Shown: positions 11,358-24,600 of the stretch, in pieces
How positions within the stretch are numbered: the stretch's first letter is position 1
Layout of the letters: each line of letters opens with the position of its first letter
From: Deltaproteobacteria bacterium
GTDB taxonomy: Bacteria; Myxococcota; B64-G9
Assembly (NCBI GenBank): GCA_019307065.1
Contig: JAFDKH010000020.1
Coordinates: 44,226 to 108,225 of the forward strand
Length of the DNA stretch: 64,000 bases
Direction of reading: 5' to 3'
Program-made: the position numbers and the translations under genes
Notes under the pieces: generated by a model
What the model was told of the DNA's origin: nothing
The model's input: the letters and a program-made list of their open reading frames with translations, nothing else
Database searches by the model: none

Positions 11358-12344
11358 CTAGATACCAGCCCCCTCGTCGAAGCGCTCTTGCCTGACCTCG
11401 GCTTGGGTCACCCGGCTGCCGGGCGGTACATTATGGGTCAACCAGATATTGCCGCCGATGGTCGACCCGCGTCCGATTGTTATCCGGCCCAGGATGGTGG
11501 CGCCCCCGTAGATGATGACATCGTCTTCAACAACCGGGTGCCTGGCTATACCTTTTATCGGGTTACCGTCTTTATCCAGAGGAAAGCTCTTGGCCCCCAG
11601 TGTCACACCTTGATAAAGACGTACTCGTTTTCCGATTACACTGGTTTCTCCGATGACTACCCCAGTGCCGTGATCAATGAAAAAATATTCGCTGATAGAA
11701 GCTCCCGGATGAATATCGATTCCAGTCAGGCTGTGGGCATACTCAGTAATAATTCGAGGCAAGAGCGGAATATCGAGTTTGTGAAGTTCATGTGCCAGGC
11801 GAAAGTTAGTTATCGCCAGAATTCCCGGATAGCACAAGATCGCCTCGTCCGGAGTATTTGCCGCTGGATCTCCCTCATAAGCCGCCTGGACATCAGTAGC
11901 CAGGACTCGGCGTACTTCTGGGAGGCTCGATAAAAACTCACCGGTTATCGACTTGGCCTTCTCTTCGCACTGCGGACAATCGGGCTCTTCTCTGTCACAA
12001 ACAAAACACATGCCCCGTTTTACCTGAATGCGCAGAGACCTAAGCACTCGGTCGAGAGTTGCTCCGACGTAGAAGCGTTCACTTTCGTCGTTTAGTTCCG
12101 AGGTCCCGAAGTAGCCTGGAAACAATACCGACCGCAAGGATTCAGTGATTTCAACCAGGGCTTCGCGTGAAGGCAGAATGTGTCTACCCTGCGGAGTAGT
12201 CCGCTGGCGGGCCAGGCCGTTGCTAGCCGCACAAATGATGTCGACAACCCGCGGAAGATCATTTTCTTCCGGTTTCACATTTTTCGCGACCGGTTTACAG
12301 GTTTTGCATTCGTCAAACATTGTTGCGTCAGCCTCACTCTTCAA
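11358..12344 (-). CDS. cysE: Serine O-acetyltransferase (EpsC/CysE type)
   Basis: Left-handed beta-helix hexapeptides; [36 protein letters not shown]. Confidence 0.9.
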
Positions 12345-13257
12345 AAAGCCAGGTGCTCAAATATCGTTCGCCGGTGTCCGGTAGAACCACGACAATCATT
12401 TTACCATCGTTTTCTGGCCGCATGGCAACCTCGGCTGCCGCCCAGGTATTGGCGCCCGAAGAAATACCCGCCAGGATCCCTTCTTCACGCGCTAGTTTTC
12501 TGGCCATGATTCCGGCATCCCGGTTGCGCACTTTGACCACTTCGGAAACCAGGTCCATGCGCATGACATCCGGAACAAATCCGGCCCCGATCCCCTGTAT
12601 TTTATGTTGACCGGGCTTGCCGCCCGAAAGCACCGCAGAATCGGCGGGCTCGACTGCAATGCTCTTGAACGATTGCTTGCGCTTTGAAAGCGCTTCGGAG
12701 ACACCTGTAATCGTGCCGCCGGTTCCCACTCCGGCAACCAGGATATCAACCTTGCCGTCGGTGTCATTCCAGATTTCTTCGGCGGTTGTCAGGCGATGAA
12801 TCTCGGGGTTGGCTGGGTTCTTGAATTGCTGCAACAGTAAATAGCGCGAATCAGAATCAACCAACTCCTGGGCTTTATTGATTGCAGCGGGCATCCCTCC
12901 AGAACCAGGCGTGAGCACCAGTTCGGCGCCAAATGCAGCCAGGAGCTTGCGGCGTTCAATTGACATTGTGTCGGGCATGATCAATGTCAACTTGTAGCCT
13001 CTGGCAGCCGCTACAAAGGCCAAACCGATTCCAGTGTTGCCACTGGTAGGTTCTACAAGAATCGTGTCAGTCTTGATATCCCCTGCTTTCTCGGCCGCCT
13101 CAATCATGTTCAAGCCAATCCGATCTTTGACACTCGAACAAGGGTTGAAACTTTCAAGTTTGGCCACCAGCCGACCCGGCATGTTTTTACCAATTTTATC
13201 GAGTTTGACTAAAGGTGTATTGCCCACCAATTGAGTAATATTATCAAAGACAGTCAT
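12334..13257 (-). CDS. cysK: Cysteine synthase
   Basis: [18 protein letters not shown]-Lys motif, [25 protein letters not shown]. Confidence 0.95.
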
Positions 13258-13281
13258 GTCAGCCTCCCGTCGTAAATATCT

Positions 13282-13722
13282 CTAGATGTGAAACATGTTT
13301 GCTTGTTTTTCCATTGCCTTTTGCTTGGCGGCGATCTGTTCAATTGTGTAAGAAGCCAGAACATTCCTGACTGCATCTCCAACTTCATGCCATATTTCTC
13401 GAGCCACGCATTGATTAGTATTTTCACACAAGCTGACGTCCAGCAGACAATCGACCGGCAGGAATGGTCCTTCCAGCGCCTGAACAATCTCGCTGGCCAG
13501 AATATCCGAGGGCGGCTTGGCCAAGACATAGCCGCCCCCGGCACCTCTAATCGATCTGACCAGCCCAACCTTTTTCAGGTTGACTAGCATACTATGCAGG
13601 TACTTGCGGGAAATCTTTTGACACTCAGCGATCTCACTCATCATCGTGGGACCATTCCCATAGCGATTAGCCAGCTCAAGCATTACTCTCAAGCCATAGC
13701 GTCCTTTGGTGGAGATTTTCAT
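13282..13722 (-). CDS. Rrf2-family transcriptional regulator
   Basis: MKISTKGRYGLRVMLELA start; C-terminal CLLDVSLCENTNQC cysteines; directly upstream of cysK-cysE. Confidence 0.9.
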   Translation of the reverse strand: MKISTKGRYGLRVMLELANRYGNGPTMMSEIAECQKISRKYLHSMLVNLKKVGLVRSIRGAGGGYVLAKPPSDILASEIVQALEGPFLPVDCLLDVSLCENTNQCVAREIWHEVGDAVRNVLASYTIEQIAAKQKAMEKQANMFHI

Positions 13723-13857
13723 TTGGTGTCCCTCGGTTATAATCCATAAAGTCACTAGACAATAACCAGAAGCAATCTAAATGTCAATGGATTTGTAATT
13801 GTATACTAAATATGTCGACTTTGTAGATTTAAATATTGACTTCTCAACATTGTTTCT

Positions 13858-13879
13858 GGTATTCCGGTACCGTAATACC
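13858..13879. promoter_or_regulatory. 22-bp near-perfect palindrome GGTATTCCGGTACCGTAATACC, candidate operator
   Basis: One mismatched pair in an 11+11 dyad located just upstream of the Rieske operon. Confidence 0.55.
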
Positions 13880-13901
13880 CCAATAGGTTTTTTCTATTCG
13901 C

Positions 13902-14426
13902 ATGGAGATAATCATGGGCAATGAGAAACCGGGAGTCAATTCTACTCAAAGCACAATAAAGCAGACCAATGAATCATCGAGCACGGGCAAGAGTCGACGA
14001 GACTTCCTGGCCAATACTCTGATGGGCACCGGCCTGGTTGTCAGCCATCTATTTGCCGGCGGCCTCGGTCTTCGCTACCTCTACCCCGCAAAGAAAGATC
14101 GCCGCCAGAGATTGTTCGTCGGCCTCAAGTCTGAGATTCCACTAGGAACTGCACAGCCTTTCAAAACGCCCCAGGGCACAACCGTTAATGTAGTTCATTC
14201 GACCAACGGGTTCATAGCGCTGTCCGACGTCTGTCCCCATCTCGGATGTCGAGTTCATTGGGAGTCGCAAACCAATGAGTTCATTTGCCCATGTCACAAC
14301 GGCCATTTTGATGCCAGCGGAGCACCAACTGCCGGTCCTCCGGCTGAAATGGGAGTCGGTCTGTCCAAGTACAAGGTTGTTGTCGACTCAGATGTGGTCT
14401 TCATCGAAATGAGGGTAACCACATGA
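13902..14426 (+). CDS. Rieske iron-sulfur protein
   Basis: CPHLGCRVHW ... CPCHNGHFD Rieske boxes; Tat-like SRRDFLAN leader. Confidence 0.95.
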   Translation: MEIIMGNEKPGVNSTQSTIKQTNESSSTGKSRRDFLANTLMGTGLVVSHLFAGGLGLRYLYPAKKDRRQRLFVGLKSEIPLGTAQPFKTPQGTTVNVVHSTNGFIALSDVCPHLGCRVHWESQTNEFICPCHNGHFDASGAPTAGPPAEMGVGLSKYKVVVDSDVVFIEMRVTT

Positions 14427-15478
14427 AGAGTCTAAGCCTGACCATCACTGATTGGTTTAGATCGAGGTTCCCGGTCGACCGCGATAGCATTCTACTTAGC
14501 TTACAAGAACCGGTTCCCAACCATCTCAAGAAGTGGTGGTGGTGTCTGGGCGGCATGCCGGCCTATCTATTCGTTGTTCAAGTAGTGACCGGCATCATGC
14601 TGGCCTTTTACTACGTTCCGGATCCCTCCCAGGCCTATGAAAGTGTCTGGCGCATATCTCACGAGATACCTTTCGGCTGGTGGGTTCGCAGCTTGCATAA
14701 ATGGTCGGCCAACCTGATGATAGTCACGGTCATTCTGCACGTCATGCGAGTCTACTTCACGGCCGCCTATCGAAAACCACGTGAATTGAACTGGATATTC
14801 GGCGCTGTCCTGTTAATTGTTACTCTAGTTTTCGGGTTCACCGGCTACACTCTTGTTTACGAGCAGCTGTCCTATTGGGGAGCTACCGTCGCGACCAACC
14901 TGGCCGAAGCAGTTCCGGTTATCGGCGATTTCTTGGCCCGCTTTATCCGCGGTGGAGATGTCGTCGGGGCCAGCACCATCACTCGCTTCTATATTCTTCA
15001 TATCATAATACTACCAACTGCGATCGCGATTTTTCTTGTGCTCCACATTATGATGGTCCGTAAACACGGCGTAACCGAGTTGCACTTCAAAGACGAAAAA
15101 CCTGGTGCAGAAAAAACTTTTCGCTTCTTCCCTGATCATATTTTGACTGAGTTGATGATTGGAATAGGCTTGCTGATAGCCATCTCGGCAATCGCGGTTA
15201 TTTTTCCTCCTGAACTTCAAGAAAAAGCCAATCCGCTGGTAACACCTGCTCATATAAAACCGGAATGGTACTTCTATTTCACGTTCCGCTGGCTGAAACT
15301 CACCGGTCTTACTATGGCGATGGTTACTCTTGGGCTGGCCGGAGCAATCTTCGTGTTCTGGCCGTTAGTTGAACCATTAATTAATCGTCTTTTTAAACGA
15401 GATGTCTCAATACCGATTGGCATCATTGCCGTTATTGGAATTCTGGCCCTGACTATTTGGGAAGCAATCGCATACTAA
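14423..15478 (+). CDS. Cytochrome b of a bc-type complex
   Basis: HKWSANLMIVTVILHVMRVYFTAAY, PEWYFYFTFRWLK; ATG overlaps the Rieske stop. Confidence 0.95.
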   Translation: MKSLSLTITDWFRSRFPVDRDSILLSLQEPVPNHLKKWWWCLGGMPAYLFVVQVVTGIMLAFYYVPDPSQAYESVWRISHEIPFGWWVRSLHKWSANLMIVTVILHVMRVYFTAAYRKPRELNWIFGAVLLIVTLVFGFTGYTLVYEQLSYWGATVATNLAEAVPVIGDFLARFIRGGDVVGASTITRFYILHIIILPTAIAIFLVLHIMMVRKHGVTELHFKDEKPGAEKTFRFFPDHILTELMIGIGLLIAISAIAVIFPPELQEKANPLVTPAHIKPEWYFYFTFRWLKLTGLTMAMVTLGLAGAIFVFWPLVEPLINRLFKRDVSIPIGIIAVIGILALTIWEAIAY

Positions 15479-15506
15479 CGCGATTCTTTTTGCAAGGAGA
15501 TTGCGG

Positions 15507-16910
15507 ATGAGTCTAAACGCCAAACGCATCATTGTCGCGGTACTGTCATTCCTTTTTCTGATAACACTCGTAATCGTTGCCTGGGTTGAAGGCCTGAAGG
15601 AGCGGGTCCAGGCGGAACCAGATCCCGTTCTCTCGGGTGACAACCAGCCATGCTACAACTGCCACAAAGAAAAAACTCCCGGCGTTACTGCCCAGTGGAA
15701 CGACAGTAAGCATTCCAAGGTTGGAGTCGGCTGCTACGATTGTCACGAGGCCAAGGAAGGCGACGTTGATGCCTGGCACCACGAAGGTAGACTGATTGCC
15801 ACTCTAGTGACTCCCAAGGATTGCGGCCGCTGCCACCAGGATATCGCGGCAGAGTTCCAGGACAGCCATCACGCCAAGGCCGGGCAAATTCTGGGCTCGT
15901 TAGACAACATCCTCGGAGAAATTATTGAAGGTCCACCAGCCGCCAATTCCGGTTGTCAACAGTGTCATGGATCGAAGATAGCCTTTCAGACTGACCCTAA
16001 GGGAAACATCCTCAAGGATAAAAGCGGCAAGCCACTCCTTGACGACGCAACCTGGCCCAACTCGGGAATCGGACGAATCAATCTAGATGGCACTATAGGA
16101 ACATGCTCGGCATGCCACTCGCGCCATCGTTTCTCGCTGGAGATGTCGAGACGACCTGACAACTGCGGCAAATGCCACCTCGGTCCGGATCATCCCCAGA
16201 AGGAAATCTACGATGAGTCCAAACATGGCATCGCCTTTGTGACTGCAGATCATCAGGGGAAAATGCATCTGGATGATGAACACTGGGTGGTCGGTGAGAC
16301 ATATAGTGCCGCCCCGACTTGTGCTACCTGTCATCTGAGCGCCACTCGCCGGCAAAAGGCAACTCATAATCCCGGCAAACGTATTTCCTGGACATTGCGA
16401 CCGGCCATATCCAAAAAGATGGATAACTGGGAAGATAAGAGACGCAACATGCAGGATGTTTGCTCCAGTTGTCATGCCCCGGACTGGATCAATGGCTTCT
16501 ATAGCCAATACGATCGGGCAGTAACACTCTACAATGAAAAATTCGGCAAACCTGCGACAAAAGTGATGGCTGCCCTGCGTAAAGCCAAGCTAGTAAACGC
16601 TACTCCCTTTGATGAGGAGATTGAGTGGATCTACTTCTTCCTCTGGCACCACGAGGGACGCCGGGCCCGAATGGGCGCTTCGATGATGGCACCGGACTAT
16701 ACCCAATGGCACGGTTTCTTCGAGGTTGCCGAACGCTTCTATATGAAACTGATTCCGAAGGCTGAGGAACTGGCCGAAGGTCACCCTGAGGCGAAAGAGG
16801 TTATCGACTCTGTGATGGATATGGAAATGCATCGCTGGAAAAAAGGAATGAGCAAAGAACAGGCCGAAAAGATCAGGTCTTTCTACAAGAAACGCTATGG
16901 CCAGGAGTAA
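15507..16910 (+). CDS. Octaheme cytochrome c, hydroxylamine oxidoreductase-like
   Basis: Eight CxxCH motifs (CYNCH, CYDCH, CGRCH, CQQCH, CSACH, CGKCH, CATCH, CSSCH); N-terminal membrane anchor; HAO-like C-terminus. Confidence 0.85.
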   Translation: MSLNAKRIIVAVLSFLFLITLVIVAWVEGLKERVQAEPDPVLSGDNQPCYNCHKEKTPGVTAQWNDSKHSKVGVGCYDCHEAKEGDVDAWHHEGRLIATLVTPKDCGRCHQDIAAEFQDSHHAKAGQILGSLDNILGEIIEGPPAANSGCQQCHGSKIAFQTDPKGNILKDKSGKPLLDDATWPNSGIGRINLDGTIGTCSACHSRHRFSLEMSRRPDNCGKCHLGPDHPQKEIYDESKHGIAFVTADHQGKMHLDDEHWVVGETYSAAPTCATCHLSATRRQKATHNPGKRISWTLRPAISKKMDNWEDKRRNMQDVCSSCHAPDWINGFYSQYDRAVTLYNEKFGKPATKVMAALRKAKLVNATPFDEEIEWIYFFLWHHEGRRARMGASMMAPDYTQWHGFFEVAERFYMKLIPKAEELAEGHPEAKEVIDSVMDMEMHRWKKGMSKEQAEKIRSFYKKRYGQE

Positions 16911-16912
16911 CG

Positions 16913-17533
16913 ATGAACTCGACCCCGGCAAAAATCGACCTGAACGATTCGGCTCTGGCAGGTCGTCTACTCGATAGTCTCGAACATCTTAAACTGGCGG
17001 CTTCTGATGATCCCGTCGAGGCTGCTTTGGCAATTGCCCTGGCGATAAGAATAGCCCAGCTCTTTTGCTATCAGCGCCTGAAAAGAATCGCCGGGCAATT
17101 CCCAGCCACAATCCAAACACTGCTGAGGACGCCAAAGATACTCCAGAACTCAGCCTTAACCGACCCACAGGAATTCATCGAGTTTTTGGACCTTATAGAT
17201 TTAATGTCAGAAACAGATTTAAAATGTATTGCTCCGCGACTTCATCGCGGCTGGCAGGACAAAGTCCAAAGCTGTCAAAGTGCCCGGCAACTGACTCAAG
17301 CTGAACTTAAATACACAATTGATGCTGATATGCGTAAGTCTCTGTTGCTGGCCCTTGAAATATACAATCGCACATATTTGCTTCCACCGCCGATAACTTT
17401 TGAGTCGCAAGCTGTCAAACAAGCCTTGGCAAGTTTGCTGGTCCTAATCGAGAAGCTGGTGCCCGAGGTTGACCGTGAGAAGCTGTTACCAATAATTGCC
17501 AAATTGCGCTCTTCGAATGGAACTCAAGAGTAG
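16913..17533 (+). CDS. Hypothetical protein in the HAO-like operon
   Basis: ORF 2 bp after the octaheme gene; no recognised motif. Confidence 0.6.
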   Translation: MNSTPAKIDLNDSALAGRLLDSLEHLKLAASDDPVEAALAIALAIRIAQLFCYQRLKRIAGQFPATIQTLLRTPKILQNSALTDPQEFIEFLDLIDLMSETDLKCIAPRLHRGWQDKVQSCQSARQLTQAELKYTIDADMRKSLLLALEIYNRTYLLPPPITFESQAVKQALASLLVLIEKLVPEVDREKLLPIIAKLRSSNGTQE

Positions 17534-17540
17534 GAACTGA

Positions 17541-17957
17541 ATGACAAGATTGATTCAGCTATCAGAAGCCGCCAACCTGGCTCTGCACGCCCTGGCCTAC
17601 CTGGGATTCCAGGATAGAAACAGGCTTGTTTCATCTTCTTCAATCGCCAATACCTTGGGAGCGTCTGAGGCGCATTTAAGTAAAGTTCTCAGAATGGCTG
17701 CGCGTTACGGGCTGGTTAGATCAACCCGGGGTGCCAAGGGCGGTTTCAGTTTGATACGAGATCCCGAACAGGTGACTTTACTCGAGATTGTCGAAATGAT
17801 TGACGGCCCGATCGTCAAGGAATCTTGCCTTATGCCATCACAGATTTGCGTAGAAAATAAATGCATCCTTGGAAACTTGTTCGATTCACTCCACAAACTT
17901 GCCAGGCAACATCTATCGCAAGCTCACTTGAGTGATTTTCGGTTCAAATCTCTCTAA
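17541..17957 (+). CDS. Rrf2-family regulator (NsrR-like)
   Basis: Rrf2 HTH; ESCLMPSQICVENKC three-cysteine cluster. Confidence 0.85.
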   Translation: MTRLIQLSEAANLALHALAYLGFQDRNRLVSSSSIANTLGASEAHLSKVLRMAARYGLVRSTRGAKGGFSLIRDPEQVTLLEIVEMIDGPIVKESCLMPSQICVENKCILGNLFDSLHKLARQHLSQAHLSDFRFKSL

Positions 17958-17977: not shown

Positions 17978-19003
17978 TCAGGCCAGGTGGTACTTCTCGC
18001 GCAGCCGCGTCGAGAGCAGGCTGGTTGCCGAAAAGGCCTTTTCTACGGTCTTTTCGCCGTCCGGATTCACCAGACAACAGGTCGCCGGCGACAGCATGCT
18101 GCGCGACAATAGGAATTCCCGGTCAATCCCCCGGCTGGTGAGTTCCTGCCAAATCTCTTCCAGGCGTTCTTCGAGTGAATTCAGGTTCTCGCTTTCAAAC
18201 GGCTCGAAATTGGCCGGTACGATTCCCCAAACCAGCACGCCGCCCCTGTCCAGGAATCGCTTAATCGAGGCTGAGTATTTTGAAAAAATCTCGCCGTTGG
18301 AATAGACATCGAGCGACAGGATATCGAGGTCTTGTCCCAGCAGGAAATCCCAGTCGGGATTGCCGCACAGATGCACTCCGCGCGGCCTTTCAATCATTGA
18401 AAAAAAGTTCTCCATATCGGGTCTGGCCGCCTGGTCTGAGTAACCCGACAGCGCGCTGAAAATGAATTGCAGCCCGGGCTCGTCGACGAACATGAAAGCA
18501 TCGGGGTGCAGTTGTTTGAGTCGGGATAATTGAGAGTTGACTCGCTTGGCCATGAATTCGAGCAAAAAAGGCCGAACCGTATCGTCAAATATGATTGGGC
18601 GATCGTCCTGGTCGAGAACATTGAACCCGAAACTTATCGGTCCTTCCATTTGGCCGCGGATAGATTTGCGATCAGAAAAATCGTGCTCGAGGAAACGATG
18701 ATAGACTGACGAATAGGTCCGGCTGATATCGAAATACTCGAGTTCTTCAAAATGGGCCAGGCAATCTTCCAATTCGGCGATAAATTTATCCATCGAAAAC
18801 CGCAGGGTCCTCTTTTCGAAGTCGACAACCGCGCCGGGAAAGTGCTCGGAAGCCTGGACATACATGTCCTCGTAATAACTGTAATGGGGCAACTGCGGCC
18901 AGAAAGGAACGTCCAGCCCAAGCGCCATTTCTAAAGCCCGATCGACATTCTTATGAGGCATGACCGCCATGGCCGTGGTCAGCAAATCTCCAGGTATCGG
19001 CAT
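17978..19003 (-). CDS. MetE/UroD-superfamily (cobalamin-independent methionine synthase-like) protein
   Basis: EGPISFGFNVLD, VHLCGNPDWDFLL, LSPATCCLVNP zinc-site-like Cys. Confidence 0.65.
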   Translation of the reverse strand: MPIPGDLLTTAMAVMPHKNVDRALEMALGLDVPFWPQLPHYSYYEDMYVQASEHFPGAVVDFEKRTLRFSMDKFIAELEDCLAHFEELEYFDISRTYSSVYHRFLEHDFSDRKSIRGQMEGPISFGFNVLDQDDRPIIFDDTVRPFLLEFMAKRVNSQLSRLKQLHPDAFMFVDEPGLQFIFSALSGYSDQAARPDMENFFSMIERPRGVHLCGNPDWDFLLGQDLDILSLDVYSNGEIFSKYSASIKRFLDRGGVLVWGIVPANFEPFESENLNSLEERLEEIWQELTSRGIDREFLLSRSMLSPATCCLVNPDGEKTVEKAFSATSLLSTRLREKYHLA

Positions 19004-19133
19004 TGGGCTGCCTTTCTGTATGATGACTGCGAACTTGATCATAACATAACACTGATTTTGTCAGCATAAGTTGCTGTAATAAACCAGATTACGGTTTCAA
19101 ACAGCAACTAATGCCAGGTATCATTCGGTCAAG

Positions 19134-20153
19134 ATGGGCGCACCGAACAAGGATGATATAATTACCGACAATCCTGGCAGGAATCAGCTGGTAGTATCCC
19201 TTGCTGCAGCTTCCTTGACTGCCGGTTTACTATCGGCCGTGCAGCTTGCCGTCGAGCAACCACGCCTGCTTCTACTGGATAGATTCTATTCGGGGGCTGG
19301 TTGGGCCGAAGTCTTGCTTTTGACGCTCTACTCAGGCTTTCTTGCCAAAAAATTCTGCGACCCGCAACAGGCCCGCATCTGGCGCCCCAGGATCTGGCGA
19401 ATTTTCTCGGTTGTCTTTTTCGCTCAGTTGATTATCGGCCTTTGCGGCGTTGATCACTTCTTGATGACCGGCAACCTGCACCTGCCGATTCCGGCTATGA
19501 TTGCCGCAGGCCCCTTATATCGCGGCAGCGGATTTTTCATGCCGATCCTGTTCCTGTCCACAATCATACTAGTTGGGCCGGCCTGGTGCAGCCACCTGTG
19601 TTATATCGGCGCCTGGGACGATCTGGCCGCTCGGGCCCGCAAGAGGCCCCAAGCGCCCTGGCGTTGGCAAACAGCTGTGCGTATATCCCTACTGCTGCTG
19701 GTCGTGGCTGCGGCGATCTTGCTGAGAATGCTCGGCGCGACACCCGGCCTGGCAGCTTCAATTGCGATCGCCTTCGGACTAGGAGGGGTAGCCGTTATGC
19801 TATTGTTGACCCGTCGGGTTGGTGTAATGGTCCACTGCACAATATATTGCCCGATTGGACTGTTGGCCAACTTGCTGGGGAAGATTTCGCTTTTCAGACT
19901 TCGCATTGGAAGCAAGTGCAACGATTGTGGAATCTGCACACGCCATTGCCGCTATGCCGCCCTTTCTAAAGAAGACATTTCACGTAGACGCCCGGCAATC
20001 AGCTGTACTCTATGCGGAGATTGTATAGCCAGCTGTAAATCCGCTCAGATAGAATATGGTCTTTTACGGTTTAGTTCGGCAACTGCTCGGGCCGTTTTCA
20101 TCGTAATGATCGTCTCATTACATGCAGTCTTTTTGGGCGTGGCTCGCTTGTAA
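19134..20153 (+). CDS. Membrane 4Fe-4S protein (NapH/NosR-C-like)
   Basis: Multiple TM segments; HCTIYCPIG, CNDCGICTRHCRYAAL, CTLCGDCIASCKSAQ. Confidence 0.8.
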   Translation: MGAPNKDDIITDNPGRNQLVVSLAAASLTAGLLSAVQLAVEQPRLLLLDRFYSGAGWAEVLLLTLYSGFLAKKFCDPQQARIWRPRIWRIFSVVFFAQLIIGLCGVDHFLMTGNLHLPIPAMIAAGPLYRGSGFFMPILFLSTIILVGPAWCSHLCYIGAWDDLAARARKRPQAPWRWQTAVRISLLLLVVAAAILLRMLGATPGLAASIAIAFGLGGVAVMLLLTRRVGVMVHCTIYCPIGLLANLLGKISLFRLRIGSKCNDCGICTRHCRYAALSKEDISRRRPAISCTLCGDCIASCKSAQIEYGLLRFSSATARAVFIVMIVSLHAVFLGVARL

Positions 20154-20420: not shown

Positions 20421-21158
20421 CTAGGCCGATTTGGCCGCAGAGACTTCCCTCTGTGACCCGAAGTTTATTCCGTGGTTATGGATTACAACCGGCATATTCG
20501 GCAGAACCTCGTTACGGGCCTCGATTACAGCCTGGCCGATTCCGCCACAACAGGGGACCTCCATCCGCAAGACCGTAATGCTGGTTGGCTGAGCCTCGGC
20601 AAAAATTTGTTTGAGTTTTTCTTTGTAGAAATCAAGATTGTCCAGCTTGGGACAACCAACCACAACGGCGCGGCCGGCCAGATAACGTGAGTGAAAATCA
20701 GGCACACAGAAAGGTACGCAGTCGGCACAAATCAGCAGGTCGGCTTGTTTCAAAAACGGTGCCCCCGGTGGAACCAACATCAGTTGAACCGGCCAATGAC
20801 TCAGCGCTGATTGACCTGACACCGGTGCAGGGCCGGGCCCAGCCTGGGGGCCAAACGATTGCAGGGCCGAACCAGGACAACCGCAAGGAATTTCCACTGG
20901 CGGGCGCGTCTCATTTTTCTCGGCCAGATACTTCTCGACCGCCGCTTCGTCAAAGTTATCGGCCTCACGCTCCTCTAAGCTGATAGCGCCCTGCGGACAC
21001 TCCCCAAGGCAAGCTCCCAACCCGTCACAGTATACTTCACTGACAAGTTTTGCTTTGCCATCAATCACCTGGATGGCCCCTTCGGCACAAGACGGCACGC
21101 ACTCTCCACAGCCATCACACAGGTCTTCATCAATCTTCACTATTTTCCTAAGTGTCAT
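20421..21158 (-). CDS. 4Fe-4S ferredoxin-domain iron-sulfur protein
   Basis: CDGCGECVPSCAEGAIQ and CDGLGACLGECPQGAIS plus Cys-rich C-terminal domain. Confidence 0.8.
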   Translation of the reverse strand: MTLRKIVKIDEDLCDGCGECVPSCAEGAIQVIDGKAKLVSEVYCDGLGACLGECPQGAISLEEREADNFDEAAVEKYLAEKNETRPPVEIPCGCPGSALQSFGPQAGPGPAPVSGQSALSHWPVQLMLVPPGAPFLKQADLLICADCVPFCVPDFHSRYLAGRAVVVGCPKLDNLDFYKEKLKQIFAEAQPTSITVLRMEVPCCGGIGQAVIEARNEVLPNMPVVIHNHGINFGSQREVSAAKSA

Positions 21159-23143: not shown

Positions 23144-24600
23144 TAGGGCGCAAAACAATCATTATGGTCGCTGTCATTATTATATTTTTTGCAGTGCCTG
23201 TAGTTTTCTGGGCGCAGACAAGATCTGAACCAAGAGATGATCCCTGGTCCAAAGTTGAAAAGAAACCGAGTAAAACGAATCATTCGAACTTGTTTGAAGC
23301 TACCGAGTTCAAGGACGGCCCCGCAGTTACCAAAGCTTGTCTGAAGTGTCACCCCGGGAGTGCTAAGGAAATAATGCAGACTTCCCACTGGACCTAGTTG
23401 GGTGACGAAGTCGTCGTACCCGGCCATGCCAAACCTCAACGGCTAGGCAAGAAGAACCTGATCAACAACTTTTGTATAAGCATCGAAAGTAATTGGCCCC
23501 AGTGCACATCATGTCACGCCGGTTACGGATGGAAAGATGCCAGTTTCGATTTCAACAAGGAAGAAAATGTAGATTGCCTCACCTGTCACGACCAGTCAGG
23601 TGGCTACTCAAAATCACTCAACGGTCTTCCGGCCAAAGGAGTCGATCTTTTAGCAGCCGCCAAAAGCGTTGGGCTGCCAACCAGAGACAACTGTGGCTGG
23701 TGTCATTTCAATGGAGGCGGAGGCGATGCCGTCAAGCACGGCGACCTGGATGGATCGTTGGCCAAACCCGCAGAACGAATCGATGTTCACATGGGCCGCC
23801 ACGATTTTCAGTGCATCGACTGTCATCGGACCAAGCAACACGTCATTAGCGGCAAGATGATGTCGGTCAGTATCGACAATCTTGATGAAATCAAATGTAG
23901 CGACTGCCATTCGATCGCGCCTCACACCAGTACCCGCCTCAACACTCATGTAGATTCATTGGCTTGCCAGAGCTGTCATTTACCGTTGATGGCCAAGAAA
24001 GAAGCGACAAAAATGGCCTGGGACTGGTCTACCGCCGGCCAGGACATCGACATAAAAGATCCACACAAATACCTAAAAATAAAAGGCAGCTTCATCTATG
24101 CCAAGAATGTCGTTCCCGAATATTACTGGTTCAATGGCAAATCCAAGCGATACCTAAAAGGCGATAAAATCGACCCTGATTCGGTTACGCACATCAACTA
24201 CCCCATGGGCGACGTCACCGATCCGGCCGCACGGATTTGGCCCTTCAAAATACACCGCGCCAAACAGCCCTACGATCAAAAGCACAAATACCTGATCATT
24301 CCCAAGACAGTCGGACCGGGCGGCTACTGGACTGAGTTCGACTGGGACTTAGCAGCCAAACTCGGAGCAAAAGAATCCGGCTTGGCTTTCAGCTCAGAAC
24401 TCGGTTTCGCCGAAACCGATATGTTCTGGATGCTGACCCACATGATCTCGCCCAAAGAGAAAGCCCTGCAGTGCGTTGATTGTCATCGGCCCAACGGCCG
24501 CCTGGATTGGAGTTCTTTAGGATATGAAGGCGACCCGGCGATTATCGGAGGGCGCTGGACCAGGCGCCTGGCCAGTAAGCGTGAGGGGGCTGTCCAATGA
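23140..24600 (+). pseudogene. Tetrathionate reductase-family octaheme c-type cytochrome interrupted by in-frame TAG at 23395-23397 (or recoded)
   Basis: ORFs 23140-23397 and 23398-24600 are contiguous in one frame; 1 + 7 CxxCH motifs = 8; HWT*LGDEVVVPGHAKPQRLGKKNLINNFCI. Confidence 0.85.

Follow-up and report, generated by a model that had tools for sequence, protein, structure and literature searches.

Modules in which a Rieske/cytochrome b pair is joined to an octaheme cytochrome that would reduce nitrite (or hydroxylamine/NO) are already known from Caldithrix, Nitrospira and anammox bacteria. The Caldithrix abyssi locus (Cabys_2564-2556) has the organization nap-Rieske-cytochrome b-epsilonHao, with the Rieske/cytochrome b genes beside the octaheme gene, and an electron route from quinol to nitrite has been proposed for it, the nitrite being supplied by Nap (PMC5317091). 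The "octaheme nitrite reductase" and associated cytochrome bc complex of Nitrospira (N. moscoviensis and strain NJ1) have the same three-gene core; its assigned role, in this nitrite oxidizer, is nitrite assimilation (PMC5767232, PMC8407350). In anammox bacteria, Kuste4569-4574 combine a b6f-like Rieske/cytochrome b pair with an HAO-like octaheme protein for proposed nitrite reduction, and the subunits co-migrate as one complex (PMC12954380). The regulation of such enzymes is a separate matter. NsrR, an Rrf2 protein, and HcpR direct the nitrosative-stress control of hcp and nitrite reductases, and HcpR controls both hcp and the ferredoxin gene frdX (PMC1274295). Our literature search found no paper linking an Rrf2 protein with an octaheme nitrite reductase operon.

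We analysed a 64,000-nucleotide stretch of DNA from a myxococcotal genome (the window), which contains a five-gene operon at positions 13914-17957. The genes are all co-directional, and successive genes are separated by -4, +28, +2 and +7 bp. A preliminary description had listed a Rieske protein, a cytochrome b, an anchored octaheme protein, an unknown protein and an Rrf2 regulator, with a 22-bp dyad just upstream. All five reading frames are present, the last ending at 17957, and the dyad (13858-13879) is near-perfect, 10 of its 11 base pairs being matched. On the other side of the intergenic region that holds the dyad is a divergent CymR-like Rrf2 gene (13282-13755, minus strand), which that description did not mention and which heads cysK/cysE-like genes.

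The first two genes encode a b6f-like pair. The Rieske [2Fe-2S] protein (13914-14426, plus strand; PF00355, 41.3 bits) has a TAT-type RRDFL signal/anchor and the cluster motifs CPHLGC and CPCHNGH; its start is probably the ATG at 13914, which is preceded by GGAG, rather than the ATG at 13902 that opens the reading frame. The cytochrome b (14423-15478, plus strand; PF00033, 200 bits) is a single chain of the b6-plus-subunit-IV type, with cytochrome b6 as its best PDB matches (E 1e-60). Its His pairs are spaced by 13 and 14 residues, the PEWY motif of the Qo site is kept, and Cys41 occupies the position of cytochrome b6 Cys35, the haem c_i cysteine. The operon has no gene for a cytochrome f/c1 subunit, whose place is taken by the anchored octaheme protein. 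In N. moscoviensis (locus L039), whose octaheme protein is 46% identical to that of the window, our motif scan found no CxHxxC in the "Rieske" protein and no PEWY in the cytochrome b, and no Rrf2 homologue was found in the locus. The anammox system has two proteins, b6 and a subunit-IV-like one, instead of a single cytochrome b chain, and further includes a second multihaem cytochrome and an NAD(P) oxidoreductase (PMC12954380).

The third gene (15507-16910, plus strand) encodes an N-terminally anchored octaheme cytochrome c, placed by alignment and tree in the reductive HAO/epsilon-Hao type. Its start, ATG 15507 (MSLNAKR), is conserved among related loci. The protein has eight CxxCH motifs and matches PF13447 (HAO-type multihaem) with 80.7 bits (cut-off 21.9); PF02335 (cytochrome c552, NrfA type) gave no match. 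PDB matches are HAO, HDH and 4qo5, the best being 4qo5 (E 1e-71 with a profile), the archaeal octaheme protein of Ignicoccus hospitalis and the closest solved structure by sequence. The active-site pair of 4qo5 is Asp followed by Val, whereas the window protein has D228-H229, equivalent to the Asp-His pair D267-H268 of Nitrosomonas HAO. The pair is retained in 85 of 89 octaheme family members, and the motifs flanking it are, like the pair itself, near-invariant across the family. The tyrosine that forms the crosslink in HAO (Tyr467 in PDB 1fgj) aligns to position 400/401, which is Q400/W401 here and mostly H/W in the family; this alignment was bridged through a relative (L018), since the C-terminus of the octaheme protein, searched by itself against the PDB, fell short of Tyr467. 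Two to three residues before the aligned site, and not at it, is a conserved Tyr398. The missing crosslinking Tyr marks reductive HAOs (PMC12758564), and a Trp with a Met eight residues earlier, as in W401 and M393, is the signature reported for reductive Hao (PMC8940962). With no tyrosine crosslink, W401 plus M393, and D228-H229, the protein is by sequence a reductive Hao of the epsilonHao/HAOr type. The oxidative HAO/HDH class was also considered for it and rejected, since Q400/W401 occupy the site of the P460-crosslinking tyrosine.

The fourth gene (16913-17533, plus strand) encodes a 206-aa, all-helical protein without a signal. It has no match in Pfam or NCBIfam, and its AlphaFold model (pLDDT 83) has no fold match in the PDB at E<=0.001. 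A TorD/NapD-like chaperone role was considered and is unsupported, there being neither a family match nor a fold match. Conserved GWQD followed by a Cys is found in the alignment, and in related loci the gene follows either that of the octaheme protein or napA together with a tetraheme cytochrome gene.

Rieske-cytochrome b-octaheme sets occur in about 20 loci/genomes from several phyla. In the closest relatives (L020-L023) the set continues with napA, and in L021-L023 napA plus a tetraheme cytochrome gene directly follow; the NapA of L022 is above its model cut-off (972 versus 904 bits). In the window's own genome no NapA orthologue, NarG or NrfA was found, and the octaheme enzyme has therefore been kept without Nap, its catalytic residues intact. 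The locus differs in this respect from that of C. abyssi, for which NapM and NapGH are present and, in the available text, no Rrf2 protein or operator is described (PMC5317091).

The less expected part of the operon is its regulation, which appears to use the DNA site that relatives use for the nitrosative-stress enzyme Hcp. The dyad, GGTATTCCGGTACCGTAATACC (13858-13879; arms GTATTC-N8-TAATAC), overlaps the promoter: a -10-like TATTCC (13860-13865) falls inside it, and a putative -35 element, TTGACT (13836-13841, plus strand), which a generic promoter scan did not pick, lies 18 nt before that. TTGAC is at the same place in L021 and L022 (17 nt), and 8 of 14 promoters of Rrf2 homologues have it at 16-18 nt. 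In the window the dyad is the sole site with up to three mismatches (0 expected). The genome-wide search proposed for it in the preliminary description revealed no other site at that threshold in 6.6 Mb, and the dyad is the single genomic site with at most one mismatch to GGTATTC-N8-GAATACC; sites with two mismatches are near chance (22, the true site counted; the reversed pattern gives 11). GGTAWTCMGGTAC was found three times in about 1.1 Mb of compared sequence, always just upstream of a Rieske gene, and the dyad recurs before the same operon in L021 and L022. The right half is weak in both, and the strict 12-position arm test (GTATTC-N8-GAATAC) is not significant for them or for several Rrf2 homologues. 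What is conserved is the left half plus GGTAC. This motif is enriched in the upstream regions of Rrf2 homologues (Fisher p = 7.5e-12, versus 0.85 for weaker Rrf2 homologues as controls), among upstream sequences partly related by descent. L023 has no site before its Rieske gene and a partial one before its Rrf2 gene instead, L147 matches in the arms only (11/12) with the GGTAC core unmatched, and no such site is present in the Rieske promoters of L024-L046, which are more distant loci.

The presumed repressor of the operon, and of itself, is the product of the last gene (17541-17957, plus strand; PF02082, 93.5 bits), so that control is presumably both autogenous and dedicated. The label "NsrR-like", given to it previously, finds no support in that wording: the protein scores 41.1 bits against a cut-off of 182 with the NCBIfam NsrR equivalog model, its cysteines are spaced C-x6-C-x4-C, and its operator, of the GTATTC-N8-GAATAC type, is unlike both the NsrR consensus gATGyAT-N5-ATrCATc and CRP-like boxes (PMC1274295). 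It fits no named subgroup, and three cysteines are also found in IscR-, RirA- and CymR-type sensors. A signal of the NO type is supported indirectly, because the same motif stands upstream of Rrf2-(ferredoxin)-Hcp operons elsewhere, whose Rrf2 proteins are homologues of the one here. Five motif-bearing homologues are in operons with Hcp and/or its ferredoxin, and in L023 an Rrf2 encoded divergently from the operon groups as sister (100/100) to one that heads hcp. In the window's genome the octaheme operon alone has a close operator site, and no Hcp is above cut-off.

There is perhaps one chance in several that the signal or the site has been misassigned, the regulator responding to Fe-S status, O2 or cysteine, or the dyad being the operator of the divergent CymR-like protein. 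The regulator does score about equally low with the NsrR, IscR, RirA and CymR models, and the CymR-like gene, with cysK/cysE-type genes behind it, lies across the same intergenic region. In L021 and L022, neither of which has a CymR neighbour, the motif nevertheless precedes the Rieske gene, and it marks not weaker Rrf2 homologues but homologues of the operon's own regulator. Several of these head hcp, which encodes a nitrosative-stress enzyme.

Taken as a whole, we read the operon, with a probability of about two in three, as a compact quinol:nitrite oxidoreductase with the octaheme protein as terminal reductase and its own Rrf2 control by a nitrosative signal. Gene content, motifs and synteny are observed, and on them we infer the electron route and product. 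The b6-like pair would oxidize quinol, presumably by a Q-cycle, and high-potential electrons would pass directly to the octaheme protein in the stead of cytochrome c1/f. The N-terminal hydrophobic segment is stronger in octaheme proteins that travel with Rieske/cytochrome b (mean 2.95) than in others (about 2.1-2.2). The octaheme cytochrome would itself be the enzyme that reduces nitrite (and hydroxylamine/NO), with ammonium as the most likely product. In related loci, NapA and the tetraheme cytochrome would make the nitrite from nitrate, a half that is absent from the window's genome. Operator conservation is likewise observed; the Fe-S-type Rrf2 repressor is proposed to sit over the -10 and to leave when NO or a species derived from nitrite gives a nitrosative signal. 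The preliminary proposal of a bc-type module feeding an HAO-like reductase is thus supported by the missing tyrosine, the retained Asp-His pair, the b6-like cytochrome b with PEWY and the nap neighbours of related loci.

It is possible, if rather unlikely, that the product is NO, as for the anammox HAOr/kuste4574, and that the Rrf2 protein senses the operon's own product. HAOr has no tyrosine crosslink and makes NO from nitrite (PMC12758564), and the Kuenenia Rieske/b complex with its HAO-like octaheme protein is proposed to do the same (PMC12954380). Against this, ammonium is the product assigned to the homologues of Caldithrix and Nitrospira, likewise by inference only (PMC5317091, PMC5767232), and no NO-consuming partner is seen within the operon. 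A doubtful alternative is that the octaheme protein is an electron relay, substituting for NapC/NapB between Rieske/cytochrome b and NapA. The napA and tetraheme genes that follow in L021-L023 would fit such a relay, but the window's genome retains the operon without NapA, the Asp-His pair and its surroundings are near-invariant, and the octaheme family occurs in other contexts without Rieske/cytochrome b and mostly without nap. Oxidation of hydroxylamine or hydrazine to feed the quinone pool is highly improbable: although an octaheme cytochrome from orange Beggiatoaceae oxidized both compounds in vitro and also reduced nitrite (PMC6449678), the crosslinking tyrosine is missing here, electrons in bc-type complexes normally pass from quinol to cytochrome, and related loci have a nap partner.

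Finally, we suggest tentatively, as an idea that may well need revision, that the regulator represents an undescribed Rrf2 subfamily (C-x6-C-x4-C, with GGTATTC-N8-GAATACC over the -10) of nitrosative-stress repressors, each acting on either FrdX-Hcp or, in its place, an electrogenic octaheme nitrite reductase with Rieske/cytochrome b, the latter standing alone and without nap in the present genome. If true, the operon would encode a Q-cycle-coupled complex for nitrite ammonification with a dedicated NO switch. Ammonification by NrfHA is generally regarded as building no proton-motive force at the reductase itself, whereas an octaheme reductase coupled to Rieske/cytochrome b could conserve energy. 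The operon would be a compact and widespread version of such a system, and surveys based on nrfA would miss operons of this kind. The shared operator would define a testable regulon joining octaheme nitrite reductases to Hcp, and may be used as a motif with which to search for nitrosative regulation in those uncultured anaerobes that have no recognised NsrR or HcpR.

The five genes of the operon (13914-17957, +) and the 22-bp dyad ahead of them (13858-13879) lie exactly where the preliminary description had placed them, and the genes are closely packed along their whole length. Rieske protein, cytochrome b, octaheme cytochrome and Rrf2 regulator were each assigned by curated models; the fourth protein matched none of the curated family models. 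The enzyme module is of a known type, because earlier proposals precede it: Rieske/cytochrome b feeding an epsilonHao-type nitrite reductase in Caldithrix, together with Nap (PMC5317091), and in Nitrospira (PMC5767232, PMC8407350), and, in anammox bacteria, Rieske/cytochrome b with an octaheme protein that would form NO (PMC12954380). Moreover, nitrite reductase, hydroxylamine oxidase and hydrazine oxidase activities are reported for an octaheme cytochrome of orange Beggiatoaceae, whose gene has napA upstream (PMC6449678). For a dedicated Rrf2/operator pair common to octaheme and Hcp operons, we found no report among the open-access papers searched.

Among 80 related loci, the Rieske-cytochrome b-octaheme set was found again in about 20 genomes, labeled as Myxococcota, Planctomycetota, Bacteroidota, Acidobacteria-type lineages, Nitrospira and others. 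Octaheme members of Verrucomicrobia/Planctomycetes mostly have other neighbors, a gene set (clusters 4, 5 and 8) read as a putative NrfCD-like module, and gammaproteobacterial members are mostly accompanied by a TPR-like protein (cluster 16). In a quick-method octaheme tree, the window clusters with loci L020-L023 (SH-aLRT 98). The gene order in L021-L023 is octaheme-napA-tetraheme-unknown protein. Rrf2 comes next after the unknown-protein gene in L022, and in L023 it lies upstream in divergent orientation; in L020, napA immediately follows the octaheme gene. The NapA of L022 exceeds its curated cut-off. The window operon is the L021-L023 set minus napA and the tetraheme gene, and neither a NapA orthologue nor NarG nor NrfA was found in its own genome, a 6.6-Mb draft assembly of 471 contigs with 5.7% contamination, where Hcp gave only a partial, sub-cut-off match. 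The genome's best NapA-like matches are L102/L103 (G000 C332), with an in-frame TGA, possibly a selenocysteine-type formate dehydrogenase, and L104 (G000 C430), with TAG.

The operon's cytochrome b is a single chain nearest to cytochrome b6; its His spacings are 13 and 14, it carries PEWY, and a Cys occupies the haem c_i position. The operon has no cytochrome c1/f gene. In octaheme proteins accompanying Rieske/cytochrome b, the N-terminal hydrophobic segment is stronger and charged residues ahead of the first haem are more numerous than in others, features consistent with an uncleaved anchor that would put the octaheme protein where c1/f would be. By analogy, the three proteins may form one complex, an idea supported by subunit co-migration in the Kuenenia analogue (PMC12954380). 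At two Nitrospira loci with this gene set, electron entry may be altered, because CxHxxC was not found in the 'Rieske' genes (L038 6279-6722 and L039 6358-6801) and cytochrome b is without PEWY. In a same-family genome (L013; G004 C99), a second octaheme gene, 53% identical, stands immediately before a gene for a membrane cytochrome with five CxxCH motifs, which may serve this enzyme type as another electron donor.

The octaheme cytochrome is an HAO-family protein, nearest by sequence to PDB 4qo5, with ordinary CxxCH at all eight haems and with D228-H229 as the counterpart of the Asp-His pair D267-H268 of Nitrosomonas HAO. The crosslinking Tyr, which the preliminary description had singled out for checking, was placed through a relative, L018, whose alignment with 1fgj spans GGWTY(467)TEGWG; the window stretch PDYTQWHG aligns here, and the Tyr467 site falls on Q400 or W401, according to the placement of one gap, so that Tyr is absent from the aligned site. 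M393 lies eight residues ahead of W401, and a Met eight residues ahead of a Trp is a reductive Hao signature (PMC8940962); the key site is His in reductive members and Tyr in oxidative ones (PMC12758564). That the protein has been retained, with its catalytic residues intact, in the absence of Nap argues that it would itself act as a terminal reductase. The window encodes one more octaheme cytochrome, distinct from that of the operon and belonging to the tetrathionate-reductase (OTR) family, 5.4 kb downstream of the operon (23398-24600, +; TIGR04315 522 bits, cut-off 375).

In the dyad, 10 of 11 pairs match, and the genome-wide search that had been proposed found it to be the only site with up to three mismatches in the assembly. 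Across the window and 1.05 Mb of loci, the 13-mer GGTAWTCMGGTAC has just three occurrences (window, L021, L022), all of them a short distance upstream of a Rieske gene. A TTGAC box precedes TAWTCM by 17-18 nt at all three, so the site would cover the -10. The dyad could instead belong to the divergent CymR-like Rrf2 gene (13282-13755, -), which shares the intergenic region with the operon; however, L021 and L022 have the putative site and no CymR-like neighbor, which speaks against that gene as the owner. The CymR-like gene lies with cysK- and cysE-like genes (11358-13755, -).

The operon's own Rrf2 is the favored candidate for binding the dyad. The promoters of Rrf2 genes homologous to it, from other genomes, also contain the motif, e.g., L146 (GTATTCTGGTACTGGAATAC; arms 12/12; 0/2000 shuffles), L174, L175, L176, L177, L178 and others. 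The combined p is 7.5e-12 (Fisher), versus 0.85 for 17 weaker Rrf2 homologues. The Fisher value overstates independence because the promoters are partly related by descent; the safer figure is a Mann-Whitney p of 1.2e-4 from comparison against the control Rrf2 promoters. Four homologues (L147, L173, L174, L176) head hybrid cluster protein operons, the Hcp scoring 736-764 bits with TIGR01703 (cut-off 361). A ferredoxin gene lies between Rrf2 and hcp in two of the four (L174, L176), and at the contig end in L146. In an Rrf2 tree poorly resolved outside a few pairs, the operon-adjacent Rrf2 of L023 is sister to the Hcp-linked Rrf2 of L147 (support 100/100).

Downstream of the operon, the window encodes a protein without a family match (17978-19042, -), a NapH-like polyferredoxin membrane protein (19134-20153, +; 44.8 bits, cut-off 213) and a FrdX-like ferredoxin-domain protein (20421-21158, -) of the type that separates Rrf2 from hcp in L174 and L176, apparently orphaned because its genome has no over-cut-off Hcp match.

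The label 'NsrR-like' given earlier to the operon Rrf2 is not upheld by the NsrR model (41 bits, cut-off 182); its Cys spacing, C-x6-C-x4-C, is common to most of its subfamily. Hcp is a nitrosative-stress enzyme controlled elsewhere by NsrR or HcpR, and the HcpR regulon includes frdX, plus nrfHA in Geobacter and Desulfuromonas (PMC1274295). Because four homologues of the operon Rrf2 head Hcp operons, the regulon content suggests that this regulator likely responds to an NO-type signal.
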